Assembly: GCF_026210795.1 (NCBI RefSeq)
Contig: NC_089430.1
Span: 5,208,001 to 5,272,000 of the forward strand
Direction: 5' to 3'
Origin: Rhizophagus irregularis
Lineage: Eukaryota; Glomeromycota; Glomeromycetes; Glomerales; Glomeraceae
Length of the DNA: 64,000 bases
Each line of letters opens with the position of its first letter. The stretch's first letter is position 1. The notes beneath the pieces are model-generated. The model saw only the letters and a program-made list of their open reading frames with translations. It ran no database searches and was not told where the DNA came from. This document shows positions 11,148 to 48,900 of this stretch, one piece after another. The position numbers and the translations under genes are program-made.

Positions 11148-14100
11148 TTATTCTATTCTAATTTTTTTTCTTTCACTCTCAGATTCGTTAATTTGACTTA
11201 AAAAATAATTTTTTCTTTTACTCCCTGATTCGCTATTTTGACCTAAGAAAAAAAAAGATTATATAAATTACGAATAAAAAAAACATAAAGTTATTATGCA
11301 AATATTGATACTTACTATCTTCATTAACATTCAATTGAGAAATAGTAGAAATTTGTGAAGATTCTATTTAATAAATTAAGGCTTATTATTAGTATTTCGT
11401 TATAAATTAATAGTTTTAAAGTTATAAGTGGAATATGTACCATTCTCATTAATATTCAACTGAGAAATATTGATTTGACAAGATTCTATTTAATAAATTG
11501 AAATTTTGTTATTAGTATTTTATAAACTAGGTACTAAGACATTACATAAGTATGCTATATACCATAAGTATTAATATTCAATTGGGAAAAGTTAAGTTGT
11601 AAAGATTCTATTTAATAAATTGAAGATTGTTATTAGTGTAATATTGGCTAATTATATTTAAAAGTAACAATACTGTTTATTAATGTTTAATGAATTACTG
11701 TTCGGTTGATTTACATACCTGAAAATTCTCTGCTTATTATATTATCATTTTGTTCATAATAATCATCAGAATTTTTTGGTTCAGGAAGATTATTATAATT
11801 AAGTAATCTACTTGTATAAATAGCTTCTGAATGTGTATTATATGATAAAAATGAATTAGCTGATGTTATACTGCTATTTGATGAATTATTGTTTATTTCT
11901 TCTGCTTCCTTAATTTGTACCTGCAATTCTATTGTTTGTTTATTATTAGATTCATATTGCCATCTAAATAAAATGCTAATTATTTCTTTTGCTATTGGTC
12001 GATTTAATGGATTGGCATCTAAGCATCTTTTAATTAAATGTACAATTAATTGCGGTACTTTAATGTTAAACCTTGGTCTAAGTCCTTTGCAAATTTGTAT
12101 TGCTAAATTATTATCATGGCTTAAATCATAATATGGGGGCAATCCAGAAATTACTTCATACATTATTATACCAAAACTATAAATATCGGCGGCTTTGGTA
12201 TAATTTTGTCCTCTTAAAATTTCAGGAGCTATATAAGGCAATACACCATATATCTTATTTTTCATATCTTCTAATTCATTATAATTTGCAGGTTTACATA
12301 ATCCCATATCAGTTATAGCAGATTTATATTTAAACTTTAATATATTTCCAATATGTAAATCTCGATGAATTAATTCCTTTTCATGAATACATTTAAGTCC
12401 AACAATAATATATTGTAAATATTCAAACATTTTATTCCAATTAAGATTATTATGTTCTTTATCTAAATAATTTCGTAGATTGCCATCTTCTGCATATTCT
12501 AAGACCATCATATAATTTTTCGTTTTTGGATCTTGGGTTATTCCATAAAATCTAACAATTATATTATTATCTGTTTCTACTTTATTATGCAGTATAATCT
12601 ATAATGCAATAAAATATTTTAGTAAAACTAACAATCTAGGGAATGATGATAAAAAATAATAAATTAAGTATCAAATTATTATACCTCATTCATAAATTCT
12701 AATGTAACATTTTTTGAATTGTCCAAACTTTTCAGAGCTATAAACTTATTTTCATTATACCTTTCCCAATTTTGATTTTCACTATCCCATTTAGTAATAT
12801 ATCCATCAATCCAATTTGCTCTATACACTTTGCCAAATCCACCTTTTGCAATATATATGATATCATAAAGTCTATCATAAGGTATCCATTCCAATGCTTC
12901 CTTTACATCTTTATGAGTTGATAGTTGGGTATATTGAATAAATTTATCAATATCATCATTTCCACTAGTCCAATCTATGAATTTCTGTTGAAAGAAAATT
13001 GCATTACATATTTTATTGCACTTTTTACATTTATTATTCAAAGCCATCATATAATTTTTTGTTTCTGGATCCTGAGTTATTCCATAAAGTTTATTAATCT
13101 ATAAATAAATATTTTATTAATAAAAAATTAAAAATTTTGTAATTATATTATCAAATAAAAAATTTATTATACCTCTTTCATAAGTTCTGATGCAATATTT
13201 TTTGAATAATCTAAGTTTTTCAGAATTACATATATATTTTTGTCCTTTCTTATCCAATTTTGATTTTCATTATCCCAACTTACATCTCTTTCATAATAAC
13301 TTATATTTCCATCAATCCAATTTGCACTATATGCTTCATCTTTTGCAATATATTTAATATTATACAATCTATCATAAGGTATCCATTCCAATGCTTCTCT
13401 TACATCTTTATGAGCTGATAACTGAGTATCTTGAATAAATTTATCAATATCATTATTACCACTAGTCCAATCTATGAATTTGTGTTGGAAGTGTATTGTA
13501 TTACATATACTATTACACTTTTTACATTTATTATTGAAAACCATAATATATCTTTTTGTTTCTGGATCTTGAGTTATTCCATAAAATTCACATTCTATTT
13601 TAATCTATAAATGTAATAATACTTATTAGTAGAAATTAAAATATTCAAAATTTTGCTAGATAAGTTTACCATACCTTATTTATAAATTCTAATGTAAAAT
13701 TATTTAAAGTATTTAAGCTATTCAAATTCACAAATATATTGTGGCCTTCTCTATTCCAAATTTGATTTTTATTATCCCAATAACTTATATTTCCATCTAT
13801 CCAATTTGCTCTAAACACTTTGCCAAATTCATCTTCTGCAGTATATTTAATATTATACAAACTATCATAGGGTATCCATTCCAATGCTTCTCTTATATCT
13901 TCATGAGCTAATAACTGAGTATCTTGAATAAATTTATCAATATCATTATTACCACTAGTCCAATCTATGAATTTATGTTGAAAATGAATTGCATTGCATA
14001 TTTTATTGCATTTTTTACATTCATTTTTCAAAACTATCATATAGTTATCTGTTTCTGGATCTTGAGTTATTCCAAAAGGTATATCAATCTATAAATACAA

Positions 14101-15663
14101 ATATATTAATAGGAATTAAAAACTTCAAAATTTTATTGGTATTAAATTATTATACCTCATCATTTGTAAATTTTGTTCTAATATTTTCTAAATTATTTAA
14201 ACTTCTCAGAATTACATCCTCACTTTCATATCTTATACAATTTTTTATCATATTATTCCAATATTTTATTTTTCCATCGATCCATTTTGCTCTATACACT
14301 TTACCAAATTCATTTTTTGCAAAATTATCCAGTCTATCATAAGGTATCCATTCTAATGCCTCATTTACATCACAAGCTGATAGCTGAGTATCCTGAATAA
14401 ATTTATCAATATCATCATTACCACTAGTCCAATCTATAAATTTCTGTTGAAAATGGATTGCATTACATATCTTATTGCATTTTTTACATTTACTATTCAA
14501 AACCATCATATAATTTTTCGTTTCTGGATCCTGAGTCATTCCATAAAATTCATATTCAATTTTAATCTACAAATATTATAAATGTTAGACAACTAAATTT
14601 TAAAATTTTGTTGAGTAATAAGCTTATTAGTAGTATACTACCTTACTTGCAAGATCATATGTAAGATCATTTGAAGTATTTAAACTTTTCAAATTCACAA
14701 ACATATTATGATTGTTTCTTTTCCAATTTTGGTTTTCATTATTCCAGTAAGAATCATTACTTTCATGATTATCTAAGTAATAACTATTGTTATAACCTTT
14801 ATCATAATAGTAACTCTTATAACCTTTATCATAATAACTTATATTTCCATCAATCCATTTTGCTCCATACACTTCACCAATCTCATCCTTTGAAATATAT
14901 TTAATATCAAAAAATCTATCATAAGATATCCATTCTAATGCTTTCTCTACACTATTATGAGCTGATAACTGAGTATCTTGAATAAATTTATCAATATCAT
15001 TATTACCGCTGGTCCAATCTATGAATTTATGTTGAAAATGAATTGCATTGCATATTTTATTGCATTTTTTACATTTATTATTCAAAACAAGCATATAATT
15101 TTTTGTTTCTGGATCCTGAGTCATTCCATAAAATTCATATTCAGTTTTAATCTACAAATGTAATAATATATTAGGAAATAAAATATTTATAATTTTTTAG
15201 GCAATTAATAAGCTTACTAGTATACTACCTTATTTGCAAGTTCAAATATAAAATCATTTGGAATATTAAAACTTTTCAAATTCACAAACATTTTATTGTT
15301 TCTTTTGTTTCTTTTCCAATTTTGGTTTACAATATCCAAATAACTATAACTACTATACCTCATGTATTTACCAAATATATTTTCAACAACCCAATTTGCT
15401 CTATACACTTCACCAAACCCATCCTTTGAAGTATATTTAATATCATAAAATCTATTATAAGGTATCCATTCTAATACCTCTTTAACATTATCATGAGCTG
15501 ATAGCTGAGTATCTTGAATAAATTTATCAATATCATTATTACCACTAGTCCAATTTTTGAAATTTTGTTGAAAACGCGCTGCAAAACATACGCGATTGCA
15601 TTTTTTACATATCTCGATTATCTTGTTAGCATTTGATGGCTTTACTAGCCCAAAAATCTCCAT
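11148..15663 (-). CDS. Kinase gene A: six N-lobe modules plus one catalytic C-lobe (TKL family)
   Basis: Eleven exons close in one frame (3729 nt, 1242 residues): 15663-15229, 15151-14642, 14566-14156, 14088-13675, 13604-13173, 13098-12685, 12598-11719, 11607-11563, 11485-11441, 11363-11316, 11242-11148. All introns start GT and end AG. The first six exons each encode a Cys-containing leader, the WTSGN and EWIPYDR motifs and kinase beta1-beta3/alphaC. Exon seven supplies beta4, the hinge and a complete C-lobe: HRDLHIGN, TDMG, PYIAPE, DIYSFG and an NPLNRP Arg. The tail is Ser/Gln/Asn-rich and ends in a basic KRK...ERKKIRIE stretch, possibly nuclear. Activity is expected only with the last N-lobe (KGGFGKV, IALK). 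The exact start is uncertain: a phase-0 acceptor lies 18 nt upstream of the chosen ATG. Substrates are unknown. Confidence 0.8.
11316..11607 (-). repeat. Tail mini-exon array of gene A (45/45/48 nt, phase 1-1)
   Basis: Three tiny exons (11607-11563, 11485-11441, 11363-11316) lie in ~110-120-bp repeat units. Each begins AATCTT after an ATAG acceptor and ends one base into a codon before GTATAT, GTACAT or GTAAGT. Translations are ESLQLNFSQLNINTY, ESCQINISQLNINEN and ESSQISTISQLNVNED. Because all junctions are phase 1, any of them can be dropped without frame loss. The preceding C-lobe exon ends CAG/GTATGT, also in phase 1. Confidence 0.75.
12685..15663 (-). repeat. N-lobe exon array of gene A (6 modules)
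   Basis: Modules in coding order, with glycine loop and beta3-Lys context: 15229-15663 KDGFGEV/VNLK; 14642-15151 KDEIGEV/VNLK, with an inserted Tyr-rich YYDKGY repeat; 14156-14566 KNEFGKV/VILR; 13675-14088 EDEFGKV/VNLN; 13173-13604 loop partly deleted (KDEAYSA)/VILK; 12685-13098 KGGFGKV/IALK. Introns are also homologous between units, so exon and intron were duplicated together. Two modules have lost the beta3 lysine altogether (Arg, Asn). Confidence 0.85.
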
Positions 15664-15669
15664 GAGCAA

Positions 15670-17110
15670 GAATTTTACAATCTATTTATAAATTCAGTTT
15701 AAGAAGATAATTAAATATAAAAAAGCTAAAAAAAATTGTGCAGATTAAAAGTTCCGGGATCATATAAATAGAAAGTCAAAATGCAACAACCACGTGATAT
15801 GATGTCGTGTGGCTTATATTAAGATATCACGTACAATACCAATTGAATTTATGAGTAACGATGATTCTGTTACAGGCAAACGCCGAAACTCGGCCTTAAT
15901 TTTGGTTAAAATTAAAATTCGGCCGAAATTATGACATAATGTCACGTGTCGTTACATTAATTTCCTAAAAAGGCAATTTGTTCCCAGTAGCTACGCGGAT
16001 TTCCTAAGATGGAAATTTCAATGTCGATCATTTTCCTGGCCAGAATCACACCCTAAAAATGGCCAGAATTATACCAATAATTTCGGTCAAATTTCGGACT
16101 AATTTCGGCGGCAAATTTATTTTTGATTGCTACAAAAAAGTTTCGGCCTTGGCCTAAATTACTTAATTCGGCAAGAAACCTTACAGTGAGTGAGTGACAA
16201 CGGCAATTCGTACCAGATCACTGATTCTGTCATACTTTCCATTTTGAAAAAATCAACACGTTCGCCAAATCTTCGACTGTGTTTTGTACGTCAAAAACTA
16301 GCTGCGGAAATGTTTATTGACGATAAACTAATACAAGATTCCAAAACGTTATATGAACGGCAAATATGAAGCATTTTGTATAGGATATAACAAGTATAAA
16401 GTGTAACGACCCTTTATCATCACACCATCGAACAATTAAATATTTTAAATATTGGTCTACAACCAAAAAAATAAAAAGATTCTTTTTATTTTTGAAGCCA
16501 CTCTTTCTAAATGACACATTTGTATATATTTAAAACCTAATTATTTGTTTCAGTATAGATTGATATATAATAATTTATTTAGTTTTTATTAAAGAAAAGT
16601 TATTGTTGTTTTCCATTTTATATTTTTAATTTCTTGTAAACTTGTTTAATTGACATAGCCATGTTTTTCATTTCATTTTTTTTTTTGAAAAAATTCTGTT
16701 CCTGGGTTACTCATTTTACGTTGAATCCGCAATAGAAACATTATAAGGTTTTCAAAAATTTTTGAGACGTTCATTAAAAAATGATCTGCAATCACATGAC
16801 ATATATGTGAATTTTTGTAAATCGGAATCTTTTTTTACTAAAATTTTATTAAACTTTAAAAAATTAAACACCCACTTAAATTTAAATAGTAAATAGTGAA
16901 TAGTAGGATTTATTTTTGTTTAATTTATTAATTTAAATATAAAAATTAAAATATAATGTTAAAATGGATCAACAATATTATTGAGAAGAAAATTATAAAA
17001 TAAATAAAAATTCTTTGCAACTTACTTTATGTAGACATAGTTTCTTCGTAAGTAATATTATATACAGTACATCATATCTAACGCCAATAAAAAATGCATA
17101 AAGTTAAACA
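15670..17110 (-). repeat. 5' flank of gene A, copy of the duplicated kinase flank, with an inserted GGCCGAAATTA-rich element
   Basis: Blocks at 15755-15860 (CATATAAATAGAAAG, CACGTG, CACGTACA) and 16200-16760 (CTGATTCTGTCATACTTTCC, GCGGAAATG, AAGTGTAA, CCGCAATAGAAA) match the flanks of B and C. Between about 15862 and 16190 is extra DNA rich in CGGCC(G/T)(A/T)AATT motifs that B and C lack at this position, probably an insertion. No gene is supported; the short minus ORF around 16314-16517 is not conserved in the other copies. Confidence 0.6.
15791..15796. promoter_or_regulatory. CACGTG element upstream of gene A
   Basis: The palindrome CACGTG sits 128 bp upstream of the gene A start. The same E-box-like hexamer is 149 bp upstream of gene B and 151 bp upstream of gene C, each time followed by a second CACGTA motif 40-50 bp away and accompanied by a TATTTATATG/CATATAAATA box nearer the start. 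A bHLH-type regulator is possible but not shown. Confidence 0.4.
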
Positions 17111-17735
17111 ACTTCCACCAAAAAAAAGAAATAAACATCAAAAGAAATAAACTTATAATTATATACAAAAAGCTCATACCACTTCTAATTGTTCTATAAA
17201 TTAATTTTCGTCTCTTTTATTAAAAACGCATAAATTTTTATTATCAAATGTTATAATAAATTTTAATAAAAAAAACAATTATTAATTGATAAATCACATT
17301 TTTTCTTCTGAAATAAAATTTTATTAAATAAATACACAACACGTTTTAAAATACCCATTTTATTATTTTTTGCAAAAAAAAACTACTTTATTATTCTTCC
17401 TATTCCTGACTTTTTTCTGCTCTTGTTGCCATTCTTCCTCGTTTCTTTCTAAAGAGCACTTCTTCCCTTTTATGCAATTAGTAGATTCTATATCCTTTTT
17501 TTAGGCGGGTTCGATAACCGTGCTAAACAAGTCGCGTTAATTTGATTATAAACATTTCTCATTTAATGAAAAAAGAACTCTTTTTGATGTATAAGTATGC
17601 AAACATGATATATGTGCCCTTTATATATATATATATTAAAGTCCTATTATATTATATAAGCATGTTCTTGTTTATAATAATAGAAAATCTTAAAAAAATA
17701 ATATAATAAAAAATAGATAATTAATACATTACAAA
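17111..17735. other. Intergenic, nothing recognised
   Basis: Strongly AT-rich with short homopolymers and a TATATATATA tract near 17625. No ORF, RNA or repeat boundary could be supported. Confidence 0.6.
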
Positions 17736-17880
17736 CTATACCTTTTGAATGAATAATTATCTATTCTTAATTTTATTTTTCACTTTTATTTCTATATTTT
17801 TGTCTGTTATTATACAATTTACTATCTTCATCAATGTTCAATTGAGAAATATTAAATATTCTAAATGATTAATTTAATAG
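17736..17880 (-). pseudogene. Relic of a kinase tail (A/C-type mini-exon and probable last exon)
   Basis: On the minus strand, 17820-17856 encodes NISQLNIDEDS-like sequence followed by the characteristic GATA/GTAAAT donor, as in the last mini-exon of genes A and C. About 40-80 bp further, a Lys-rich stretch ending in a stop (NIEIKVKNKIKNR) sits where the basic terminal exon should be. No catalytic exon precedes it. This is a second orphan 3' end. Confidence 0.55.
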
Positions 17881-23939: not shown

Positions 23940-24046
23940 CTATCTATCTATTTGTGAAATATCAATTTTAGAAATATCAATTAGTTGAGAAATATCAGTT
24001 TGTTGAGAAATATCAATTTGTTGAGAAATACCAATTTGCTGTGATT
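23940..24046 (-). repeat. Terminal exon of gene B with tandem (I/T)-D-I-S-Q-(Q/L) repeats
   Basis: A phase-1 exon of 34 sense codons plus stop encodes about five imperfect copies of a six-residue unit (GISQQI, DISQQT, DISQLI, DISKI, DISQI). It corresponds in position to the mini-exon tail of genes A and C, which share the ISQL core. Here the repeat has expanded inside one exon rather than as separate exons, and the basic terminal exon is absent. Confidence 0.65.
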
Positions 24047-27000
24047 CTTTTTAATTAAATGAGATATAATTAATATTAATTTTTCAAAAATAAATAAATA
24101 AATAAATAAAATTATTAACCAATACCTGACAATTCCTTGCTTATTATATTATCATTTTGTTCATAATAATCATCAGAATTTTTTGGTTCGGGAAGATTAT
24201 TAAAATTAAGCAACCGACTTATATAAATAGCTTCTGAATGTGTTTTATATGATATACCTAAATTACTTATATTTATATTACCATTTGGCAAATCATTATT
24301 TATCTTATCTGCTTCTTTAACTTGGTTTTGAATTTCCGCTTTGCCATAAAACAGTTCAAATTTCCATTTATCTAAAATTCCTTTAATTTCAGCTGCTGTT
24401 GGTCGCTTTAATGGATTTGCATCTAAACATCTTTTAATCAAATGCACAAGTAATTGTGGTACTTTAATATTAAACCTTGGCCTAATTCCTTGGCAAATTT
24501 TGATTGCTAGGAATTCATCATGACTTATATCATGATATGGAGGTAATCCAGAAATTACTTCGTACATAATTATACCAAAACTGTAAATATCAGATGCCTT
24601 AGTATAATTTTGTCCTATTAGAATTTCAGGAGCTATATAAGGTAAAATACCATATATATTTTTCTCTGAATTTTCCGATTTATTATAATCTGCAGGTTTA
24701 CATAACCCCATATCTGTTATTACAGTTTCATCTTCAAACTTTAATATATTACCAATATGCAAATCTCGATGGATTAATTCCTCTTCATGAATATAACTAA
24801 GTTCAAATGCAATATCATATAAGTTACTAATCCTATCAATCCAAACTAGATTTTTATGATTTATATCCAAATAATTTCGTAAACTCCCGTATTCTGCATA
24901 GTCTAAAACCATAATATAATTCTTTGATTCAGGATCCTGAGTCATTCCATAAAATTTAATAGCTTTATAATTGGAATTTATTTTATGATGTAATATAGCC
25001 TGTATAAGATGCAAAATAAAATATTACGATATGAATTTAAATTTTCATTAAATAATTAATTAATTAAAATACCTCATTCATAAATTCCAATGAAATATTT
25101 TTTGAATTATTTAAACTTTTCAGTGCTACTAACATATCTTTATTATATCTTTTCCAGTCTTGATTTTCGTTATCCCATTTTTCTATAGGTCCATCAATCC
25201 ATTTTGCTTTATAAACCTTAGCAAATCCACCTTTTGCAATATATTCAATATTATTAAATCCATCATAAGGAATCCATTCTAATGCACTCGATAATTTACT
25301 AGCTGTATGTGCTAACAGCTGGGTATCTTGAATAAACTTATCAATATCATTATTACAACTAGTCCAATATTCAAAATTTCTTTGAAAATGTTGCACATTA
25401 CACATATAATTACATATTTCACAGCTATCACTTAAAATTATCATAAAATCTTTTGTTTCAGAATCTTGAGTTATTCCATAGAATTTGTAATTTTTTTTAA
25501 TCTGTAAATATATTATTAATATATCAATAAAATTAATAATTTTTATAAAATTTAAATAACAAATTAATCATTACCTCATTTATAAATTCTTTTGTTATTT
25601 GTTTTGAATTATTTAATGTTTTTAGTATTACAAACATATTTTTATTAGATCTTTTCCAATTTTGGTTTTCATTATCCCATCTTTCTATATATCCATCAAT
25701 CCAATTTGCTTTATACATTTTGCTAGATTCATCATTTGCAATAAATTTAATATTATAAAATCTACCATAGGGTATCCATTCTAATGCTTCCTCTATATTA
25801 TAATGAGCTGATAGCTGAACATCTTGAATAAATTTATCTATTTTATTATTACCACTAGTCCAGCTTTCAAAATTATGACAAAAGTGAATTGCATTACATA
25901 TTTTATTACATATATTACATCTATTACTCAAAACCATTAAATAATCATTTGTTTCTGTATCCTTAGTTATTCCATAAAATTCGTGTATTATTTTAATCTA
26001 TAAATATAATGTGTTAGAGAAAATAAATACTTATAATTGAAAAAAAGATCATCATACCTTATTTGTAAATACTAATGTAAGATGTTCTGAAACATTTAAA
26101 CTCTTCAATCTCACAATCATATTATGATCTCCTCTTTTCCAATTTTGATTTTCATTATCCCAGTATCTTATATTTCCATCAATCCAATTTGCTCTATACA
26201 CTTTGTTAAATCCATCTTTTGAAATAAATTCAATATTGTAAAATCTATCGTAAGTTATCCATTCAATTGCTTTTAATACTTCATAATTATTAGAATGCAT
26301 TGATAACTGAACATCTTGAATAAATTTATCTACAACATGATTACCACTAGTCCAATTGCTAAAATTTTGTCGAAAATGTATTGCAGCACATATATAATTA
26401 CATTTTTTACATATAATATTCAAAACAACAAAATAATTTTTTGTTCCTGGATCCTGAGTTATTCCATAACATTCATGATATATTTTAATCTACAAACGTT
26501 ACATTATATTAGTAAAAATTACAAATTTTATTGAATAATCTTACTTATTATACCTTATTTATAAATTCTGATGTAAGATTGTTTGGAGTACCTAAACTTT
26601 TCAACTTTACAAACATATTAAACATATTAGGATTGCTTCTTTCCCAATTTCGATTTACATAATTCCAACTTTGAAAATTCGATATATAACCATCAATCCA
26701 ATTTGCTCTATACACTTCACCAAAATCATCTTTTGAAATATATTTAATACCATAAAATCTATAATAAGGTATCCATTCTAATACTCCCCTCAAATCATCA
26801 TGAGCTGATAACTGAGTATCTTGAATAAATTTATCAATATCATCATTACCACTAGTCCAATCTATAAATTTCTGTTGAAAATAAATTACATTACATATTT
26901 TGTTACATTTTTTACATTTATTATTCAAAACAACAAAATAATTTTTTGTTCCTGGATCCTGAGTTATTCCATAACATTCGTGATATATTTTAATCTACAA

Positions 27001-30000
27001 ACGTAACATCATATTATTAGTAAAAATTACAAATTTAATTGAATAATCTTACTTATTATACCTTATTCATAAATTCTAATGTAAGATTGTTTGAAGTACC
27101 TAAACTTTTCAACTTCACAAACATATTATGATTATCTCTTTCCCAATTTTGATTTACACAATCCCAATATTCCATATTTCCATCAATCCAATTTGCTCTA
27201 TACATTTTACCAAACTCATCTTTTGAAATATATTTAATATCATAAAATCTATCATAAGGTATCCATTCTAATACATTATTTATTTTATAGAATGTATGTG
27301 CTGATAACTGAGTATCTTGAATAAATTTATCAATATCATCATTACCACTAGTCCAATCTATGAATATATGTTGAAAATGAATTATATTACATATATTATT
27401 ACATTTTTTACATTTATTATTCAAAACCATTATATAATTTTTTGTTTCTGGATTCTGAGTCATTCCATAAAATTTATATTCCATTTTAATCTACAAATGT
27501 AATAATATGTTAGAAAAATAAAACTTTAAAATTTTGTTGAGTAATAAACCTATTAGTATGCTACCTTATTTGCAAATTCAAATGTAAGATCATTTGGAAA
27601 ATTTAAAATTTTCAAATTCACAAACATATTAAGATTATCTCTTTTCCAATTTTGACTTACATAATCCCAATATCCCATATTTCCATCACTCCATTTTGCT
27701 CTATACACTTCACCAAACTCATCTTTTGAAATATATTTAATACCATAAAATCTATCATAAGGTATCCATTCTAATGCCATTTCTGCATTACCATGAGCTA
27801 ATAGCTGAGTATCTTGAATAAATTCATCAATATCATCATTACCACTAGTCCAATCCATAAATTTCTGTTGAAAATGAGTTGCATTACATATTTTATTGCA
27901 CTTTTTACATTTACTATTCAAAACCATCATATAATTTTTTGATTCTGGATCCTGAGTTACTCCATAAAGTTTATGGCTAAATTTAACCTACAAATCAAGC
28001 AATATATAAATAAATATTAATTCTTCAAAATTTTAATAAATAACCTATTATACCTTATTTATAAATTCTAATGTATGATTGTTCAGAGTATCTAAACTCT
28101 TCAAATTCACAAATATATTAGGATTGCCTCTTATCCAAAATTGATTTTCATTATCCCAATATTCTATATTTCCATCAATCCAATTTGCACCATACACTTT
28201 ACCAAACTCATTTTTCGCAAAATCATACAATCTATAATAAGGTATCCATTCTAATGCTTCCTCTACATTATTATGAACTGACAGCTGAATATTTTGAATA
28301 AATTTATCAATATTATCATTACCACTAGTCCAATCTATGAATATATGTTGAAATTGAATTGCATTACATATACTGTCACATTTTTTACATTTATTATTCA
28401 AAACCATCATATAATTTTTTGTTTCTGGATCCTGAGTCATTCCGTAAAATTCATATTCAATTTTAATCTAAAAATATAATAATATATTAGAAAAATAAAA
28501 TTTAAAATTTTATTGAGTAATAAGCTTATTGGTATATTATACCTTATTTGCAAATTCTAGTGTAAGACTGTTTGGAGAAATTAAACTTCTCAAATTCACA
28601 AATATATAAAAAATGTTTCTTTCCCAATTTTGATTTTCAATATCCCAATACTTTATATTTCCATCAATCCAATTTGCTCTATATACTTTACCAAACTCAT
28701 CTTTTGAAATATATTTAATATTATACAATCTATCATAAGGTATCCATTCTAATGCCATTTCTGCATTATCATGAGCTGATAGCTGAGTATCTTGAATAAA
28801 TTTATCAATATTATCATTACCACTAGTCCAATTTTCGAAATTTTGTTGAAAACGTATTGCATAACATATACAATTATTACATTTTTTACATTTATTATTC
28901 AAAACCATCATATAATTTTTTGTTTCCGGATCCTGAGTAATTCCATAAAATTTATATTCAATTTTAATCTGCAAATGTAATAATATGTTAGAAAAATAAA
29001 ATTTTAAAATTTTGTTGAGTAACAAGCTTATTGGTACTATATTATACCTTATTTGCAAATTCTAATGTAAGATTATTTGGAGTAATTAAAATTTTCAAAT
29101 TTACAAACATATTAGGATTGTTTCTTTCCCAATTTTGACTTTCATTATCCCAACTTCCATAATAATCTATATTTCCATCAACCCAATTTGCTCTATACAC
29201 TTCACCAAACTCATCTTTTGAAGTATGTTTAATATCATATAATTTATTATAAGGTATCCATTCTAATGCTTCCTCTAAATTATTATGAGCTGATAGCTGA
29301 ATATCTTGAATAAATTTATCAATATTATCATTACCACTAGTCCAATTTTTGAAACTTTGTTGAAAATGCAATACATGACATATGCGATTACATGTTTTAC
29401 ATTTATTATTCAAAACCATTATATAATTTTTTGTTTCTGGATCCTGAGTCATTCCATAAAATTCATATTCAATTTTAATCTACAAATGTAATCATAGGTC
29501 AGAAAAATAAAATTTTAAAATTTTGTTGTGTAATAAGCTTATTAGTATACTACCTTATTTGCAAGTTCAAAAAATGTAAGGTCATTTGGAGTATTTAAAC
29601 TTTTCAAATTCACAAACATACCAAGATTGTATCTTTTCCAATTTTGATTCACATAATCCCAACTTCGAAAATTTGATATATAACCATCAATCCAATTTGC
29701 TCTATACATTTCACCAAACTCATCTTTTGAAATATATTTAATATCATAAAATCTATCATAAGGTATCCATTCTAAAACTCCCCTCAAATCATTATGAGCT
29801 GATAACTGAGTATCTTGAATAAATTTATCAATATCATCATTACCACTAGTCCAATCTATAAATTTCTGTTGAAAATAAATTACATTACATATTTTGTTAC
29901 ATTTTTTACATTTATTATTCAAAACCATCATATAATTTTTTGTTTCTGGATCCTGAGTCATTCCATAAAATTCATGTTTAACACTGATCTACAAATGTAC

Positions 30001-32470
30001 AATATATTAAAAAAAATAAAGTATTTAAAATTATTAATTAAACTTATCATACCTTAGTTACAAGTTCAAAAGTAAGATCATTTGGAGCATTTAATCTTTT
30101 CAAATTCACAAACATATTAGGATTGCTTCTTTCCCAATTTCGATTTACATAATTCCAACTTCGAAAATTCGATATATAACCATCAATCCAATTTGCTCTA
30201 TACACTTCACCAAACTCATCTTTTGAAATGTATTTAATACCATAAAATCTATCATAAGGTATCCATTCTAATACTCCCTTCAATTCATAATGAGATAATA
30301 ACTGGGTATCTTGAATAAATTTATCAATATCATGATTGCTGCTAGTCCATTCATTGAATTTATGTTGAAAATGAATTACATAACATATACTGTCACATTT
30401 TTTACATCTATTATTCAAAACCATCATGTAATTTTTTGTTTCTGGATCCTGAGTTATTCCATAAAATTCATATTCAATTTTAATCTACAAATGTAATAAT
30501 ATGTTAGAAAAACAAAATTTTAAAAGTTGGTTGAGTAATAAGCTTATTAGTATGCTACCTTATTTGCATGTTCAAATGTAAGGTCATTTGGAAAATTTAA
30601 ACTTTTCAAATTCACAAACATATTAAGTTTATCATTTTTCCAATTGTGATTTACATGATTCCAATATCTCAGATTTCCATCAATCCAGTTTGCTCTATAC
30701 ATTTCACTAAACTCATCTTTTGAAATATATTTAATATCATAAAATCTATCATAAGGTATCCATTCTAATACTTCCCTCAAATCATCATGAGCTGATAACT
30801 GAGTATCTCGAATAAATTTATCAATATCATCATTTCCACTAGTCCAATCTATAAATTTCTGTTGAAAATGACACATTTTATTGCACTTTTTACATTTATT
30901 ATTCAAAACCATCATATAATTTTTTGTATCTGGATCCTGAGTCATTCCATAAAATTTATATTCAATTTTAATCTACAAATAAATGTAATAATATGTTAGA
31001 AAAATAAAATTTTAAAAGTTTGGTGAGTAATAAGTTCATTGGTATATTACTTTATTTGCAAGTTCAAATGTAAGATCATTTGGAGAATTTAAACTCTTCA
31101 AATTTACAAACATATCAATATTGGTTCTTATCCAATTTTGATTTAAATTCCAATAACTATAATTTTTATATTCTGTAACATATTTGCTATTTATTTTTAT
31201 TTTTCCATCAATCCAATTTGCTCCATACACTTTACCAAACTTATCTTTTGTAATGCATTCAATATTATGCAGTCTATCATAAGGTATCCATTCTAATGCT
31301 TTATTCACATCATAATGAGCTGATAGCTGAGTATTTTGAATGAATTTATCAATATTATCATTACCACTTGTCCAATCTATAAATTCCTGTTGAAAATGAA
31401 CCACATTACATATTTTGTTGCACTTTTTACATTTATTATTCAAAACTATCATATATTTTTTTTTTTCTGGATCCTGAGTTATTCCATAAAATTCATGTTC
31501 AACCCTAATCTACAAATGTACAAAATGTACAATATATTAAAAAAAAAATAAAATATTTATAATTGTTAATTAAGCTTATCATACCTTATTTGCAAATTCA
31601 AATGTAAGATCATTTGGATTATTTAAACTTTTCAAATTCACAAACATATTAGGATTGTTTCTTTCCCAATTTTGATTTACATAATTCCAACTACGAAAAT
31701 TTGATATATAACCGTTAATCCAATTTGTTCTATACACTTCACCAAACTCATCTTTTGAAATATATCTAATATCATAAAATCCATCATAAGGTATCCATTC
31801 TAATACTCCCCTTACATCATCATCATGAGCTGATAACTGAGTATCTTGAATAAATTTATCGATATCATCATTACCACTAGTCCAATCTATAAATTCCTGT
31901 TGAAAATGAATCACATTACATATTTTATTGCACTTTTTACATTTATTATTCAAAACCATCATATAATTTTTTGTTCCTGGGTCCTGAGTCATTCCATAAA
32001 ATTTGTATTCAATTTTAATCTAAAATGTAATAATATGTTAGAAAAATAAAATTTTGAAATTATGTTAAGCAATAAGCTCGTTAGTATACCTTATTTGCAA
32101 GTTCAAATGTAAGATCATTTGGATTATTTAAACTTTTCAAATTCACAAAAATATTAAAAATGTTTCTTTCCCAATTTTGATTAGCATAATTCCAATATTT
32201 TATATTTCCATCAACCCAATTTGCTCTATACACTTCACCAAACTCGTCTTTTGAAGTATATTTGATATTACAAAATCTATCATAAGGCATCCATTCCAAT
32301 GCTTTATTCATTTCATAATGAGCTGATAGCTGAGTATCTTGAATAAATTTATCAATATTATCATTACCACTAGTCCAATTTTTGAAATTTTGTTGAAAAC
32401 GTATTGCATAACATATACGATTACATTTTTTACATATTTCGTATGGCTTAACTAGCTCAAAAGAATCCAT
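23940..32470 (-). CDS. Kinase gene B: fifteen N-lobe modules plus one catalytic C-lobe (TKL family)
   Basis: Seventeen exons total 7386 nt and close to 2461 residues without a stop: 32470-32090, 32019-31585, 31509-31051, 30972-30559, 30484-30053, 29988-29554, 29479-29048, 28968-28543, 28467-28054, 27987-27565, 27490-27062, 26994-26554, 26489-26058, 25997-25575, 25501-25073, 24999-24126, 24046-23940. Modules are ~138-153 residues and joined in phase 0. The C-lobe exon keeps HRDLHIGN, TDMG, PYIAPE, DIYSFG and NPLKRP, so phosphotransfer looks possible with the final N-lobe (KGGFAKV, VALK), whose last loop glycine is Ala. The last exon encodes a hexapeptide-like ISQQID repeat. Annotation pipelines may split this locus into many short models. 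Whether all modules enter one mRNA is not known. Confidence 0.78.
25073..32470 (-). repeat. N-lobe exon array of gene B (15 modules)
   Basis: Loop/beta3 state in coding order: 32090 KDEFGEV/VNLK; 31585 same; 31051 KDKFGKV/VNLK; 30559 KDEFSEM/VNLK; 30053 KDEFGEV/VNLK; 29554 KDEFGEM/VNLK; 29048 KDEFGEV/VNLK; 28543 KDEFGKV/VNLR; 28054 KNEFGKV/VNLK; 27565 KDEFGEV/VNLK; 27062 KDEFGKM/VKLK; 26554 KDDFGEV/VKLK; 26058 KDGFNKV/VRLK; 25575 NDESSKM/VILK; 25073 KGGFAKV/VALK (numbers are exon low ends). The alanine of the usual VAIK motif is restored only in the last module. Exons starting at 26058 and 26554 share QDPGTKNYFVVL and are probably nearest duplicates. Confidence 0.85.
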
Positions 32471-32489
32471 GAGCAAAAATTTTGCAACC

Positions 32490-35545: not shown

Positions 35546-35564
35546 TAAAATATTATTTATGCAA

Positions 35565-39917: not shown

Positions 39918-41918
39918 TTATTCTATTCTAATTTTTTTTCTTTCACTCTCAGATTCGTTATTTTGACTTAAGGAATGATTTTTTCTTTTACTTCCCGATT
40001 CGCTATTTTGACCTAAGAAAAAAAAAGATTATATTAATTACGAATAAAAAAAAAACATAAAGTTATTATGCAAATATTGATATTTACTATCTTCATTAAC
40101 ATTCAATTGAGAAATAGTAGAAATTTGTGAAGATTCTATTTAATAAATTAAGGCTTATTGTTAGTATTTATAAACTAATATTTTTAAAGTTATAAGTGTA
40201 ATATTTACCATTCTCATTAATATTCAAATGAGAAATATTAATTTGACAAGATTCTAGTTAATAAATTGAAATTTTGTTATTAGTATTTTTAAACTAAATA
40301 TTTTTTGATGTTATAAGTGGAATATTTACCATTCTCATTAATATTCAATTGAGAAATATTGATTTGTAAAGATTCTAGTTAATAAATTGATACTTTTAGT
40401 ATTTTATAAACTAGGTACCAAGACATTACGTAAGTATGCTATTTACCACTAGTATTAATATTCAATTGAGAAAAGTTAAGTTGTAAAGATTCTATTTAAA
40501 AAATTGAAGATTATTATTAGTGTAATATTAACTAATTATATTTAAAAAGTAACAATTAATACCGATTATTAATGTAAGTAAATTACTGTTTGGTTGATTT
40601 ACATACCTGAAAATTCCTTGCTTATTATATTATCATTTTGTTCATAATAATCAACAGAATTTTTTGATTCAGGAAGATTATTAAAATCGAGTAATCTACT
40701 TGTATAAATAGCTTCTGAATGAGTTTTATATGATAGACTAGTTGAAGGTATACTATTTGATAAATTTTTGTTTATTTCATCTGCTTCTTTAATTTGTTTT
40801 TGTATTTCAGTTGAATTTCCTAATCTCCATTTCCATAATTCATCCCTAATCTCTTTTGCTTTTGGTCTATTTAATGGTATTGCATCTAAGCATCTTTTAA
40901 TCAAATGCACAATTAACTGAGGTACTTTAATATTAAACATTGGCCTAAGTCCTTGGCATATTTTTATTGATAAAATTCTATCATGGCTTATATCATGATA
41001 TGGGGGTAGTCCAGAAATTACTTCATACATAATTATACCAAAACTATAAATATCAGCAGCTTTAGTATATTTTTGTCCTCTTAAAATTTCAGGAGCTATA
41101 TAAGATAGAACACCATATATATTGTTTGTTGTATTTTCTGATGCATCATAATCTGCAGGCTTACATAATCCCATATCAGTTATATGAATAACTTCATAAT
41201 TTTTAAGAATATTCCCAATATGTAAATCTCGATGAATTAATTTATTATTATGAATATTCTCAAGTCCAGATGCAATACAACACAAATATTTAATCTTACT
41301 ATCCCAATTTAATTTATTAAAAGCTGTATCCAAATAATTTCGTAAGCTTCCATCTTTTGCATAATCCATAACCATTATATAGTCTTTTGTTTCTGGATCT
41401 TGAGTTATACCATACAGCTTTATAATATAAAAGTTATCTTTCACTTTATTATGCAGCATAACCTACATGTAAAATGCATGTAACAAATATAATATAAGAA
41501 ATTAAGATTCAAATATATCATTAAACAAAAATTGTATGATTACCTCTCTTATAAATTTTAATGTAACATTTTTTGAATTATTTAAACTTTTTAAAGCCAC
41601 AAATTTATTATGATCTTCTCTTTTCCAATTTTGAATTTCATTATCCCATTTGCCTATACATCCAACAAACCAATTCGCACTATATACTTTTCCAAACCCA
41701 CCTTTTGCAATATATTTAATATTATGAAATCTATCATAAGGAATCCATTCTAATGCTTTTTTTACCTTATGATAAGTATGCTCTGATAGCTGAGTATCTT
41801 GAATAAATTTATCAATATTATCATTGCCACTAGTCCAATCTATAAATTTCTGTTGAAAGTGAATTGCATTACATATTTTATTACATATTTTGCATTCATT
41901 ACAATGCAAAACCATCAT
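39918..41918 (-). CDS. Conventional single-N-lobe kinase readable from an internal ATG of gene C
   Basis: Downstream of the frameshift, an ATGATG at 41918 opens the canonical ninth module (41544-41918). Splicing to the C-lobe exon, four mini-exons and basic last exon gives 1509 nt, 502 residues, without interruption. This protein has one N-lobe (KGGFGKV, VALK), a C-lobe with all catalytic motifs, and the A/C-type tail. Its layout is that of an ordinary TKL kinase of this lineage. A promoter for such a transcript would have to lie in the preceding intron or module, and none was recognised. Whether it is used is inference. Confidence 0.45.
40088..40491 (-). repeat. Tail mini-exon array of gene C (45/45/45/48 nt)
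   Basis: Four phase-1 mini-exons (40491-40447, 40374-40330, 40253-40209, 40135-40088) encode ESLQLNFSQLNINTS, ESLQINISQLNINEN, ESCQINISHLNINEN and ESSQISTISQLNVNED. Gene A has three; the ~120-bp unit holding the additional one here is nearly identical to its neighbour, so copy number changes by unit duplication. The last exon (40012-39918) is basic, ending RKKIRIE. Confidence 0.75.
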
Positions 41919-44900
41919 ATAACTTTTGTTTTTAGATCCTGAGTAATTCCACAAGCTTTGTTAATCTACAAATAAAAAAATATTATTAAAAAAAATTAAA
42001 ATTTGCAATTATATTATCAAATCTAAAATAATTTCACCTTCATAGATTCTGATGTAATATTATTTGAATAATTTAAGTTTTCCAAAATTACAGATATATT
42101 TTGATTCTTTCGTTCCCAATTTTGATATTTATTATCCCAATAACTTATATTTCCATCAATCCGCTTTGCTCTATATACTTCACCAAACCCACCTTTTGCA
42201 ATATACTTAATATCATACAATTTACTATAAGGTATCCATTCCAATGCCTCTTTTACATCACAAGCTGATAGCTGAGTATCTTGAATAAATTTATCAATAT
42301 TATCATTACCACTAGTCCAATCCATGAATTTATGTTGAAAATGAATTGCATTGCATATTTTATTGCACTTTTTACATTTATTATTCAAAACCATCATATA
42401 ATTTTTTGTTTCTGGATCCTGAGTTATTCCATAAAATTCATATTCAATTTTAATCTACAAATGTAATAATATGTCAGAAAAATAAAATTTTAAAATTTTG
42501 TTGAGTAACTTCTTAGTATATTACCTTATTTGCAAGTTCAAATGTAAGATCATTTGGAGAAGTTAAACTTCTCAATTTCACAAACATATTAGGATTTCTT
42601 CTAATCCAATTGTTATTTACACTCCAAGAACAAAACATATAATAATTCTCACCTATGTTTCCATCAATCCAAATTGCTCTATACACTTTACCTAACTCAT
42701 CTTTTGTGATATATTTAATGTCGTACAATTTATTATAAGGTATCCATTCTAATGCTTCATTTACATTATCATGGACTGACAGCTGCATAACTTGAATAAA
42801 TTTATCAATATCATTATTTCCACTAGTCCAATTTTTGAAGTTTCGTTGAAAATATATTGAATTACATATTACACTATTACATTTTTCACATATATCGTCC
42901 AAAACTATCATATAATTTTTTGTTTCTGGATCCTGAGTTATTCCGTAAAATTCATATTTAATCTAAAAATGTAATAATATGTTAGAAAATAAAATTTTAA
43001 AATTTTGTTAAGTAATAAGCTTAGTATACTACCTTATTTGCAAGTTCAAATGTAAGTTCATTTGGAGAATTTAAACTTTTCAAATTCACAAACATATTAA
43101 AAACGTTTCTTATCCAATTTTGGTTTACATCATCCCAATGACTATAATTATTATATTCCCAAACATATTTGGTACCTATCTTTCCATCAATCCAATTTGC
43201 TCTATACACTTCACTAAAATCATCTTTTGAAATATATTTAATGTTATAAAATCTATCATAAGGTATCCATTCTAATATTCCCCTCACATCATAATGAGCT
43301 GATGACTGAGTATCTTGAATAAATTTATCAATATCATCATTACCACTTGTCCAATCTATGAATTTATGTTGAAAATGAATTGCATTACATATTTCATTGC
43401 ACTTTTTACATTTATTATTCAAAACCATCATATAATTTTTTGTTTCTGGATCCTGAGTAATTCCATGAAATTCATATTCAATTTTAATCTACAAATGTAA
43501 TAATATGTCAGAAAAATAAAATTTTAAAATTTTGTTGAGCAATAAGTTTATTAGTATAATACCTTAATTGCAAGTTCAAATGTAAGATCATTTGGAGAAT
43601 TTAAACTTTTCAAATTCACAAACATGTTAAGATTGTTTCTTTCCCAATTTTGATTTTTATCATCCCAACAGTTAGACTTCCAACTATATATACTACCTAT
43701 ATTTCCATCGCTCCATTTTGCTCTATACACTTCACCAAACTCATCTTTTGAAATATATTTAATATTATAAAATCTATTATAAGGTATCCATTCTAATGCC
43801 TCTTTTGCAATATCATGAGCTGATAACTGAGTATCTTGAATAAATTTATCAATATTATCATTACCACTAGTCCAATTTTTGAAATTTTGTTGAAAACGTA
43901 TTGCATAACATATTTTTTTACACATTTTACATTTATTGCAATGTAAAACCATCATATAACTTTTTGTTTCTGGATCCTGAGTAATTCCAAAAGCTTTGTT
44001 AATCTACAAATAAAATATATTATTAAAAAAAATTAAAAATTTGCAATTTACATTATCAAATCTAAAATTAATTTTACCTTCTTCATAAATTCTGATGTAA
44101 TATTATTTGAATAATTTAAGTTTTCCAAAATTACAGATAAATTTTGATTCTTTCATTTCCAATTTTGATATTTATTATCCCAATAACTTATATTTCCATC
44201 AATCCGCTTTGCTCTATATACTTCACCAAACCCACCTTTTGCAATATACTTAATATCATACAATTTACTATAAGGTATCCATTCCAATGCCTCTTTTACA
44301 TCACAAGCTGATAGCTGAGTATCTTGAATAAATTTATCAATATTATCATTACCACTAGTCCAATCCATGAATTTATGTTGAAAATGAATTGCATTGCATA
44401 TTTTATTGCACTTTTTACATTTATTATTCAAAACCATCATATAATTTTTTGTTTCTGGATCCTGAGTTATTCCATAAAATTCATATTCAATTTTAATCTA
44501 CAAATGTAATAATATGTCAGAAAAATAAAATTTTAAAATTTTGTTGAGTAATAATACTAACCTTATTTGCAAGTTCAAATGTAAGATCATTTGGAGAATT
44601 TAAACTTTTCAAATTCACAAACATATTCAGTTTGTCTCTTATCCAATTTTGATTTTCATAATTCCAGTAACTTATATTTCCATCAATCCAATTTGCACTA
44701 TATACTTTATTAAACTCATCATTTGCAATATATTTAATATCATACAATCTATTATAAGATATCCATTCTAATACCCAATCTACATCACAAGCTGATAGTT
44801 GAATATCTTGAATAAATCTATCAATATCATCATTACCACTAGTCCAATCTATGAATTTATGTTGAAAATGAATTGCATTGCATATTTTATTGCACTTTTT

Positions 44901-45976
44901 ACATTTATTATTCAAAACCATCATATAATTTTTTGTTTCTGGATCCTGAGTTATTCCATAAAATTCATATTCAATTTTAATCTACAAATGTAATAATATG
45001 TTAGAAAAATAAAATTTTAAAATTTTGTTAAGTAATAAGCTTATTAATATACTACTACCTTATTTGCAAGTTCAAATGTAAGATCATTTGGAGTATTTAA
45101 ACATTTCAAATTCACAAACATATTAAGATTGTTTCTTTTCCAATTTTGTTTTACATTATCCCAACAATTATTATATTCATTACTTATGTTTCCATCAATC
45201 CAATTTGCTCTATACACTTCACCAAATTTCTCTTTTGAAATATATTTAATATTATACAATCTATTATAAGGTATCCATTCTAATGCTTCTCTTGCATAAT
45301 CATGAGCTAATAACTGAACATCCTGAATAAATTTATCAATATTATTATTGCCACTAGTCCAATCTATGAATCTATGTTGAAAATGAATTGCATTACATAT
45401 TCCATTGCACTTTTTACATTTATTATTCAAAACCATCATATAATTTTTTGTTTCTGGATCCTGAGTTATTCCATAGAATTCATATTTAATCTACAAATGT
45501 AATATGTTAGAAAAATAAATTTTAAATCTTGTTAAGTAATAAGCTTATTAGTATACTACCTTATTTGCAAGTTCAAATGTAAGATCATTTGGAGAATTTA
45601 AACTTTTCAAATTCACAAACATATTAGGATAGTTTCTTTTCCAATTATGTTTTAATACATCACCCCAATAATTATAACTATAATATTTATCAATTATGTT
45701 CCCATCAAACCAATTTGCTCTATACACTTTACCTAACTCATCTTTCGTAATATATTTAATGTCATACAATTTATCATAAGGTATCCATTCTAATGCATTA
45801 TTTACTTCATAGAATGTATGTGCTGATAACTGAGTATCTTGAATAAATTTATCAATTCCTTCATTACCACTAGTCCAATCTTTGAAGTTTTGTTGAAAAC
45901 GAATTGCGTTACATCTATAATTACATTCTTTACATATCTCGTAACCATCCGGCTGAACTAGCCCAAAAGAATCCAT
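41544..45976 (-). repeat. N-lobe exon array of gene C (9 modules)
   Basis: Loop/beta3 state in coding order (exon low ends): 45560 KDELGKV/VNLK; 45059 KEKFGEV/VNLK; 44562 NDEFNKV/VNLK; 44078 KGGFGEV/stop, then VILE; 43563 KDEFGEV/VNLK; 43033 KDDFSEV/VNLK; 42525 KDELGKV/VKLR; 42038 KGGFGEV/VILE; 41544 KGGFGKV/VALK. Two modules keep the glycine loop but have Glu in place of the ATP-binding lysine. Only the last has both. Confidence 0.8.
42038..42510 (-). repeat. Module nearly identical to 44078-44560 (recent internal duplication)
   Basis: Exon 42038-42454 with its upstream intron and exon 44078-44497 with its upstream intron differ at only a handful of positions over ~470 bp. The similarity continues on the other side into the preceding intron and the start of the next exon (41935-42037 against 43976-44077). 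The copy at 44078 has acquired TGA where this one has CGA. Confidence 0.8.
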
Positions 45977-45984
45977 GAACAAGA

Positions 45985-48900
45985 ATTTTACAACCTATAA
46001 ATAAATTTAGTTTTACGATGACAATTTAATATAAAAAGGCTAAAAAAATTTGTGCAGGTTAAAAAGTGAAAAAAGTATTGCTTCGTTCCAAGATCATATA
46101 AATAGAAAGCCAAACATTGTAGAAATCACGTGTAATGTATATCATGTGACTTGAATTAAAGAAGTCACGTACATCATTGTAATGCCGACTGGATTCGTTG
46201 GATACAGATTGAATTATGCATACGGCCTTGAAGGAAAGATGTATAGAACTGGTCCTCCACAAATTTCGAGCTCTTCCACAATAAAAAATATCGAAATGAT
46301 TCTTTAGTTTACGTGTTTCAGCGCAGTAACAGTAAATACTATTACACAGAATTCTTGGCAAACAACGATTCGTTACTCCAATGCATAACTAATAAATAAT
46401 TAATGAAAGAATAAAAGCGTTGACTCTTTCATACCTTCCACATATAGGCTTTGATTTGTACGTCAAAAAACTAACTGCGGAAATGCTTATTGAAGTAACA
46501 CGAAATTCCGAAACATTTATATGAGTGGCGAAGTACGTTGTGCAAAATAGAATAGGAATACACAAGTGTAAAGTGTAACCAATCCTTTATCATCAAAATA
46601 TCAAAACAATCATATGAAAATTAAAAATATTTTTTAAATATTGATCTACGACAAAAAAAGTTTTTTTATTTTAAATGACACTTTTTTATTTTTAAATGAC
46701 ACCTATTGTATAAACTTATTATTTTAATACCTAGGATCTTTTGTTTCAGGATAGATGGATACTATATAGTAATATATTATTATTATTTTTTTTTTTATTA
46801 AGATAAAGAGTCATTGTTGTTTTTCCATTTTATCCTTTTTAAATTTTTCGGCAAAAAAAAATTTGTTTAATCGACATAGCCACGTTATTATTGTTCACTT
46901 GCATGTTTTTCATTTTCATTTTACTTGAAAAAAAAAAAAAAAAAAATTTCTTTTTTTAATAAAAACCCGAAGAAAAAACCTGGTTCGTATGGTTCGTGCT
47001 TATATTTTCCAATTATGTCTAGGTCACTTTTTTATGGGTCCTATGAACCCGCAGTAGAAATATTTATTAATAAAATAGAACAAGGTTATTAAAAAAAAAA
47101 TGTTTCATTTTTAACGGAAATAGGCTTAGACTTTTTTTTTCTTTTTTATTTACTTCTTATCATAGGTAACACAATGTATAAATAATCAACATTTTATTTT
47201 ATTTTTTTGAAAAAATTTTAATTTATTAATTTCCCATCTAATTAAAAAAAAAAATCTCTTTTTTTTTTAATGTATCGGTTATATATATATACATATATGT
47301 ATTCTTTTTTATATATATATATAAATATATATACGAGTTTCTTATTATATATATAAACATGTTCTTGTTTATCCAAAATGTCGAACACTTTTTTTTTTTT
47401 CAAATGTTGTACTTTTTCTTTTTCTTTCTATACAATGTAGGACAAAAGAAAAAATAAATAAAATAGTAACAAGCAATAAAAAAGAGAAAATTAATAATTG
47501 AAATTATTTTTTTTTTTTTCTCAATGAAAAATAGAGCATTGAAAAAAGAACTTCCCAAAAAAGATTAATTTTATTTTTAAAACATTTTTTATTTTTTTAT
47601 TTTTTATTTTATTTTATTTATTTTTTTTTTAATTAAAAATTGATGAAACTTTATTAACGAAAAAAAATAAAATTTTTTTTTTTCGCCCTACGCCTCAAAA
47701 AAAAAAAAAAGAAAAATAGTAACAATTTGTAATAATAAATAATAAATAATAAAAAAAATATAAAAATAAAATAAAAAATTCCCGCGAAAAAATCAAAAAA
47801 GGGAACAAAAGAGAATATCTGATAATGCATGATCTGCGAAAAATTGATGGTTTATTGATGTAGTTGATGTTATCCGCCGAATTGCATATCATCTTCTATG
47901 AAACATATTGTATTATCGGAGGTATCGGGAAACATTAAAACAATTACAAGCACTGTAAGTCTGTAAGTCTTTAAGTACTGTTTAAAATAATAATTAAAAA
48001 AAATTTATTATTATTATTAAAAAATTTATTATTATTATTAAGTTGTCAAAAGAACAAGTTTATTACAAGAAAAGGGATGTTTGTGGGTAAGTCAAGTGAT
48101 ATTTATTTGTGAGACGTACGTGAGAGATTTTTCTTTTTATTATTTATTTATTTGGTGGGGTTATTGTTTCACAAAGAAAGAATTGAAGAAATTCAAAACT
48201 CGCGAAAGGGCGGTTTATTTTGGCAAAAAGATAAACAAATTTTTATTTAAATAGTTAATTTTACAGACAAAGACTTGGCAGAATTATTTAATTGGTGTTC
48301 AACTTTTTCATACTACACAAAATTTGGTAACATTTTTCCAATTTTTTTTTATCTCACGAAATACGAAATGTATCCTTTTTGCCTTTGCTTTAAAAAAAAA
48401 ATAGATACATTTGCCAAGGATATAAAAAAGCAAAAGGATATTCTGGTATTCAATTTTTTTTTTAATTATGATTACATTTTTTTTCTTTTTTGTGTGAAAT
48501 CTTAATCAGAGATTTTAAAGATTTTTTTTTATATTAAAACATTAAAACAAATAAATCATATTATTCACATCATCACATGAAATATGTGTTTCATACTTTT
48601 GGTTTTACGTATGTCCTACCTTTCATTTTTTAAAACAAATAAAGTGTACTTTTTTTCCCCACAAAAAAAAAGAAAAGAAATTTAAGGACATTTTGTTTAC
48701 ATTTGATTGTCTATCCTTTTTTTTATTATTATTATTATTATTATTAACATCACTTATTATTATTATTATTTATTCATTGAAAATAATAATAAAGACAATA
48801 ATAATTATAATAAAAACGTTTCATAAAAATAAATATCTTGATATATCATTATAGAAAAACTTAATAATCAAACTAAAAAAGAATGAACGTGGGATTTATT

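Follow-up and report, generated by a model that had tools for sequence, protein, structure and literature searches.

Tandem N-lobe exon arrays precede a single kinase C-lobe in Rhizophagus irregularis and other Glomeromycotina

We analysed a 64,000-nt stretch of DNA (the window) within the 146.7 Mb, 32-contig assembly of Rhizophagus irregularis. On its minus strand lie three genes, here called A, B and C, with 6, 15 and 9 tandem exons, respectively, that each encode an N-lobe module of a protein kinase, and each array is followed by one exon encoding the C-lobe. A first-pass annotation of the window had proposed these counts, which we recovered, and two spliced products, whose figures we reproduced exactly: gene A joins 11 exons into 3729 nt encoding 1242 residues, and gene B joins 17 exons into 7386 nt encoding 2461 residues, both open throughout. 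The gene A product is identical over its full length to a deposited protein, P0001 ('Ypk2p', R. irregularis DAOM 197198w, 1242 aa). Exact matches to the module cores of genes B and C were absent among the first 120 database proteins fetched.

Gene A starts with module 1 (15229..15663, ATG at 15663), a first exon that carries the leader and β1–αC. Modules 2 to 5 follow at 14642..15151, 14156..14566, 13675..14088 and 13173..13604, and the last, module 6 (12685..13098), has intact GGFGKVY, IALK and NE motifs. The C-lobe exon (11719..12598; HRD, DMG, APE) precedes three small C-terminal exons (11563..11607, 11441..11485 and 11316..11363) and a terminal exon with the stop (11148..11242), which closes the protein at 1242 aa. 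Gene B begins with module 1 (32090..32470, ATG at 32470), and modules 2 to 8 lie at 31585..32019, 31051..31509, 30559..30972, 30053..30484, 29554..29988, 29048..29479 and 28543..28968. Modules 9 to 14 occupy 28054..28467, 27565..27987, 27062..27490, 26554..26994, 26058..26489 and 25575..25997, and module 15 (25073..25501), the last, has GGFAKVY, VALK and NE intact. Its C-lobe exon (24126..24999) is followed by a terminal exon (23940..24046) encoding six-residue QIDISQ-type repeats, an 18-bp repeat within a single exon.

Gene C has its first exon, module 1, at 45560..45976 (ATG at 45976), and modules 2 to 8 at 45059..45490, 44562..44981, 44078..44497, 43563..44003, 43033..43488, 42525..42962 and 42038..42454. 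The last, module 9 (41544..41965), retains the catalytic residues, and the C-lobe exon (40607..41462) precedes four small C-terminal exons (40491-40447, 40374-40330, 40253-40209 and 40135-40088). The reading frame fails to close: module 4 contains an in-frame stop, and module 9 shifts frame close to its 5' end. These breaks reflect either real decay or assembly error, and gene C as assembled is probably non-functional. Modules 4 and 8 are nearly identical, as expected from recent duplication within the array, module 4 being the copy with the stop. The tandem small C-terminal exons of genes A and C (11316-11607 and 40088-40491) measure 45–48 nt, recur with a period of ~121 bp and encode SLQINISQLNINEN-type peptides.

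The exons had been described as a leader plus β1–β3/αC. Those parts are present, but internal exons open with β4–β5 (FYGITQDPETKNYMMVL), directly after the acceptor AG, and continue through the leader to β1-β2-β3 and the first half of αC, ending at a phase-0 donor. The leader contains Cys-x2-Cys-x3-Cys with WTSGN..ID.FIQ..QL and LEWIPY. The C-lobe exon likewise has a β4–β5 stretch, placed after the second half of αC. Because the β4–β5 of each N-lobe is supplied by the next exon, every module would become a complete N-lobe once spliced. As the annotation had stated, splice sites are consistent: all introns of genes A and B are GT..AG, with 21 post-module introns of 60–86 nt in phase 0 and five introns 3' of the C-lobe exons in phase 1. 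This anatomy bears on the idea that the modules are individual short genes or fragments of genes, for which Met codons near the β5–leader joint of internal modules could be cited. We find that idea hardly credible, given that A, B and C have first exons with a common start, M[DE]xFxLVxP, and that multi-module models have been deposited; separate short genes were ruled out by internal exons that run from an acceptor at β4 to a phase-0 donor.

The three arrays are real, but the pattern extends beyond them to the genome, the genus and other Glomeromycotina. From a genome-wide module search, in which 150 of 4724 candidates were scored, we picked 20 loci for their module clusters; with the window these make 23 arrays which, having been so chosen, give no estimate of the share of arrays among kinases. 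All 20 carry a regular array of at least 5–16 modules and one C-lobe, the numbers being lower bounds since a locus may miss first modules at its edge. No C-lobe match above 200 bits lies between modules in any of the 23 arrays, giving the layout M(n)C (M, module; C, C-lobe). The exon–intron unit is ~490–500 bp long. Across these arrays, a GT..AG phase-0 intron is possible at 204/212 junctions, and six of the eight failing junctions border a broken or fragmentary module. The introns span 60–156 nt (median 72), their lengths modulo three are evenly spread (70/64/70 over the 204 junctions), and in none of the 204 would a retained intron be in frame and open. Fragments make up only 8 of the 214 module rows, one of them owing to a locus edge, with the frame-shifted module 9 of gene C counted as a whole row.

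Control loci showed a simpler arrangement. At 12/12 other C-lobe loci taken from further down the PF07714 list, we found a single N-lobe module exon, in stretches that extend only ~1.5 kb upstream of the module; one of these loci, L029, coincides with L003. The module match starts at column 21–28 in 11 of them and at column 72 in one (L035), that is, without β4–β5, and is followed by the C-lobe. One-module, two-exon kinases are evidently the ordinary form of this family. Among the eight best PF07714 loci, L005 has two modules and L006 three, L003, L004 and L007 have one, and L001, L002 and L008 have none. By eye, about two thirds of the module matches listed fall within one chromosomal interval, G000:C2 ~4.8–5.8 Mb, forming a regional cluster in which the window lies.

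The array genes encode recognizable kinases. Residues 817–1081 of P0001 match PF07714 with 151 bits against a curated cut-off of 23.1, and the C-lobe exons of A, B and C score 129–137 bits. All three C-lobes have HRD..N, DMG and APE, with DMG in the DFG position and its Asp and Gly kept. We then compared N-lobe residues across 214 module rows (23 last modules, 191 others), dropping rows without letters at a given site. The Gly pair of the glycine loop is present in 23/23 last modules and 5/189 others, and the VAxK alanine in 22/23 and 0/186. The β3 lysine is more widely kept (23/23 versus 163/186), whereas the αC glutamate again separates the two groups (22/23 versus 47/186); its one exception among last modules is module 9 of gene C, whose row ends before the aligned column and whose residues read RE. 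Gly pair, lysine and glutamate occur jointly in 22/23 last modules and 1/191 others. These counts are not independent, as the arrays share ancestry. This positional rule is nonetheless the strongest evidence that the C-lobe's working partner is the adjoining module and that the modules further upstream have another role. The first-pass description of modules feeding one C-lobe accordingly holds for the last module, but not for upstream modules, which lack the usual ATP-binding residues.

The same rule weighs on the possibility that the arrays serve alternative splicing, with each transcript joining one or a few selected module exons to the C-lobe exon to give kinases with varied leaders. The exon number of the arrays resembles that of known exon-choice arrays, and with phase-0 junctions at nearly every position the frame would be kept by every choice. 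Judged from sequence, however, most upstream choices would make kinases without the usual ATP contacts, so that the equal exon phase of mutually exclusive exon arrays is found here but a working product from each alternative is not. The short introns (median 72 nt) and the deposited models, which place the exons in series, also count against it. Because of the residue rule, we judge exon choice unlikely as the main mode.

Pfam searches reflect the same division. Among seven single module exons, two weak matches appeared on module 6 of gene A (E 0.11 and 0.18) and none on the other six. Pfam finds a single kinase unit in each of P0001, P0117 and P0161 and no kinase match to upstream modules; what else it reports falls in unrelated families, below cut-off or with no stretch passing alone, except for weak ABC1 and fungal-kinase matches in the one kinase unit itself. 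Since Pfam sees one kinase domain and nothing of the array in the proteins scanned, such proteins are annotated as ordinary kinases.

A search of other Glomeromycotina, which the first-pass annotation had suggested, recovered module arrays in proteins of Rhizophagus species, Glomus cerebriforme, Acaulospora and Gigaspora. Among the matches listed (120 of 420 and 120 of 182), species-named module proteins come from R. irregularis, R. clarus, R. diaphanus, G. cerebriforme, A. morrowiae and G. rosea, and the module is absent from three weak matches outside these six species (P0175-P0177). The most modules among the proteins listed, 25, are found in R. irregularis P0182 (3396 aa). R. clarus P0121 (3061 aa) has 19 modules and a C-lobe, A. 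morrowiae P0161 has 12, G. cerebriforme P0145 has 7 and G. rosea P0183 has 4; R. diaphanus also has arrays (P0011, P0016). P0117, P0127 and P0184 (12, 16 and 18 modules) are OCT59 R. irregularis gene models and come from an annotation that used long-read RNA; in the part of the account consulted, the DAOM197198 assembly has 32 chromosomes and was annotated from Illumina and Nanopore RNA (PMC10234402).

The residue rule extends to these proteins, which we divided into clade I and a divergent clade II, a second clade within Rhizophagus, by C-lobe score, a split that places clade I proteins with a partial C-lobe in clade II; partial modules were left out of the counts. In clade I, Gly pair and alanine occur jointly in 69/77 last modules and 1/345 others; in clade II the figures are 51/60 and 0/422, and the Gly pair by itself is found there in 53/60 and 0/422. 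In A. morrowiae (P0161, P0170) and G. rosea (P0183, P0185, P0186, P0207), the last module carries GGFG with VALK or IALK and the other modules do not.

Related proteins also show other arrangements. G. cerebriforme P0109 has one module per kinase in the layout MCMC, and R. clarus P0188-P0190 have three complete kinases in a row (MCMCMC), another amplification mode. In G. rosea P0173, P0183, P0185 and P0207, a long N-terminal region precedes 2–4 modules and the C-lobe, a receptor-like layout, and hydrophobic stretches are visible by eye before the modules in the P0173 and P0183 sequences. For P0183 only, the long region and hydrophobic stretches suggest that the array would sit on the inner side of a membrane, beside the kinase. 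Some of the proteins without a C-lobe match, a group that includes P0013, P0017 and P0024, show modules only and are either annotation splits or arrays without a kinase.

We next consider whether the upstream modules are maintained by selection or are a tolerated by-product of unequal exchange, in which only the first exon, the last module and the C-lobe matter and the rest drifts. The ratio of non-synonymous to synonymous substitution (dN/dS, w), computed without a model of gene conversion between modules, is 0.67 in non-last modules (86 disjoint pairs; median 0.72 over all 749 non-last pairs used) and 0.50 in last modules (11 pairs). This difference, the variation in copy number from 5 to 16 among the loci read and the breaks in gene C speak for drift. 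On the other hand, a neutral simulation with intron base composition gave w of 1.16–1.32 and a stop in 60% of lineages at 5% pairwise divergence and in 99.5% at 20%, compared with 8 fragmentary rows among the 214 modules. Constraint is also regional: w is 0.40 (0.35–0.48) in the leader, whose residues are almost invariant across modules, 0.32 (0.22–0.48) in β3 and 0.65 in β4–β5, compared with 1.15 (0.85–1.71) in the β2–β3 hairpin. Moreover, arrays recur in Acaulospora and Gigaspora. Taken together, we regard drift of tolerated copies as improbable. The glycine loop follows the positional rule, with w of 0.10 in last modules (11 pairs) and 0.78 upstream. In the linker between leader and LEWIPY (columns 66–71), w reaches 2.24 (1.63–3.23) upstream and 2.06 in last modules, values that alignment may inflate over these six gapped codons; the excess over the neutral level may be real diversification or an alignment effect.

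Trees give a partial view of how the arrays arose. A tree of 208 module rows, from which the trait columns had been removed, requires 14 changes for last modules, compared with a shuffled mean of 22.1; they form no single clade, a weak result from few columns. In a clade tree of 97 rows, the Acaulospora rows and the sole Gigaspora row form one group (100/100), and the 35 clade I rows fall in a starred group (95/86) with 11 single-module rows and one G. cerebriforme row but no clade II row. With a midpoint root and a bootstrap that had not settled, this tree suggests that arrays may have been amplified separately in different lineages, loss of arrays in the single-module rows being the alternative. 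N-lobe secondary structure is predicted in each module, and a fold search, run on a three-module model as a whole, listed matches spanning residues 319–649; the best sequence match and the best Foldseek match are a JAK. A second AlphaFold2 model (P0071) was poorer, with a predicted local distance difference test (pLDDT) score of 66.8.

The arrays had been argued not to be unrelated fragments, and frame closure, phase-0 splicing, selection, positional residues, deposited models and recurrence in other species all bear this out. We think it likely that each is a linear concatemer, with one active kinase at the C-terminal end and upstream pseudo-N-lobe repeats for docking or regulation. The genes belong to a multi-exon kinase family of Glomeromycotina of PF07714 type, that is, tyrosine kinase-like (TKL-like). 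The internal exon may have originated when the hinge of the C-lobe exon after β5 was joined to the leader of exon 1, both ends being phase 0: a duplication running from the exon 1 leader to the exon 2 hinge would yield a composite exon of β4–β5, leader and β1–αC. From this anatomy, the composite unit could then have been multiplied by unequal exchange before the single C-lobe. Splice phase and deposited models point to constitutive, linear splicing, which would produce a string of leader–N-lobe repeats.

The residue pattern strongly supports the view that only the last repeat would form an ATP-binding, active kinase with the C-lobe. The upstream repeats are predicted pseudo-N-lobes that keep the fold and leader and have lost the Gly pair, the VAxK alanine and often the αC glutamate; they would fold one after another in the string. 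N-lobes are common regulatory surfaces in other kinases, and within the module the leader ranks among the regions under strongest constraint, whereas the ATP contacts are lost. For these reasons we tentatively favour an intracellular scaffold role for the upstream repeats, in docking partners or substrates or in controlling the one kinase. More speculatively still, the N-lobe and its WTSGN leader may have been made into a repeat protein, with up to ~25 pseudo-N-lobes and in at least two, probably three, lineages, that acts as a fast-changing intracellular recognition or docking array on one kinase and diversifies the leader–β1 linker. If true, such arrays would define a new class of repeat receptor-like signalling proteins.

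Several observations weigh against the concatemer interpretation. Broken modules occur, gene C carries two breaks, and the C-lobe match of one array of the 23 (L022) is in two pieces. Selection on part of the array may be relaxed, since w is nearer to 1 in upstream modules than in last ones. The β3 lysine persists in those 163 of 186 upstream modules, and in clade II the VAxK alanine does so in 123/422 (last modules, 55/60), so that there the Gly pair is what marks the last module. One of the two marks, Gly pair or alanine, is missing from 8/77 clade I and 9/60 clade II modules adjoining a C-lobe. Finally, at the cut-offs used no C-lobe was matched in 28/175 database proteins, which were left out of the clade counts; P0161, one of them, has a divergent C-lobe, and others may be annotation splits or another product.

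Known systems resemble these arrays in part. The pseudokinase of JAK and GCN2 has both lobes and is present in one copy. Pseudokinase–kinase tandems of this type are alike in that a catalytically impaired, kinase-derived unit precedes an active kinase in one chain; in contrast, the repeated unit of the arrays is just an N-lobe plus its leader, and one predicted protein (P0182) has as many as 25 such units. Upstream modules share the loss of catalytic residues with pseudokinases, on a predicted N-lobe fold, but not the possession of both lobes per unit. Plant tandem kinases comprise two or three units, mostly whole domains, and are not known to form long exon arrays; in RWT4, a partial kinase duplication reportedly binds an effector. 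As far as the part of the source consulted goes, plant tandem kinase resistance proteins such as Rwt4 are similar in having duplicated kinase-derived units, some of them inactive (PMC10027608). They are defined by two or more two-lobed domains, whereas each of the 23 arrays has one C-lobe. R. clarus P0188-P0190 are related kinases that also have tandem units in one protein, but there the repeat is the whole kinase rather than the N-lobe.

A further comparison is with the expanded PF07714 kinases of R. irregularis itself, which are of the same species and family and whose evident ordinary form is the single-module, two-exon kinase. In the parts of the published accounts consulted, this expansion is treated in terms of gene and domain numbers, methylation and transposon neighbourhood (PMC6123716, PMC3886924, PMC8647823). 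N-lobe exon arrays go unmentioned in those parts, in the corresponding part of PMC10234402 and in a wider literature search that left most subscription journals and preprints outside. The kinase expansion is thus known and array gene models are already deposited, while the architecture is unnamed in the literature covered. One kinase preceded by a string of seemingly dead half-kinase units suggests a repeat protein of a kind so far undescribed, joined to a signalling enzyme. It would represent an unusual route to enzyme regulation, in which half of a catalytic domain has been amplified and catalytic residues lost in nearly all copies except the partner of the C-lobe. The residue rule makes the division of each protein into an enzyme part and a sensor or scaffold part testable, and offers a handle on why these symbionts retain so many kinases.

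The remainder of the window holds other genes. On the plus strand we noted a cytochrome P450 (3415-5146), whose Pfam match falls in the second of its two open frames, a PB1-domain protein (53244-54419) and an NAD kinase N-terminal domain (55501-56187). On the minus strand, an open reading frame at 60653-62470 encodes an RNase H domain, perhaps from a retroelement.

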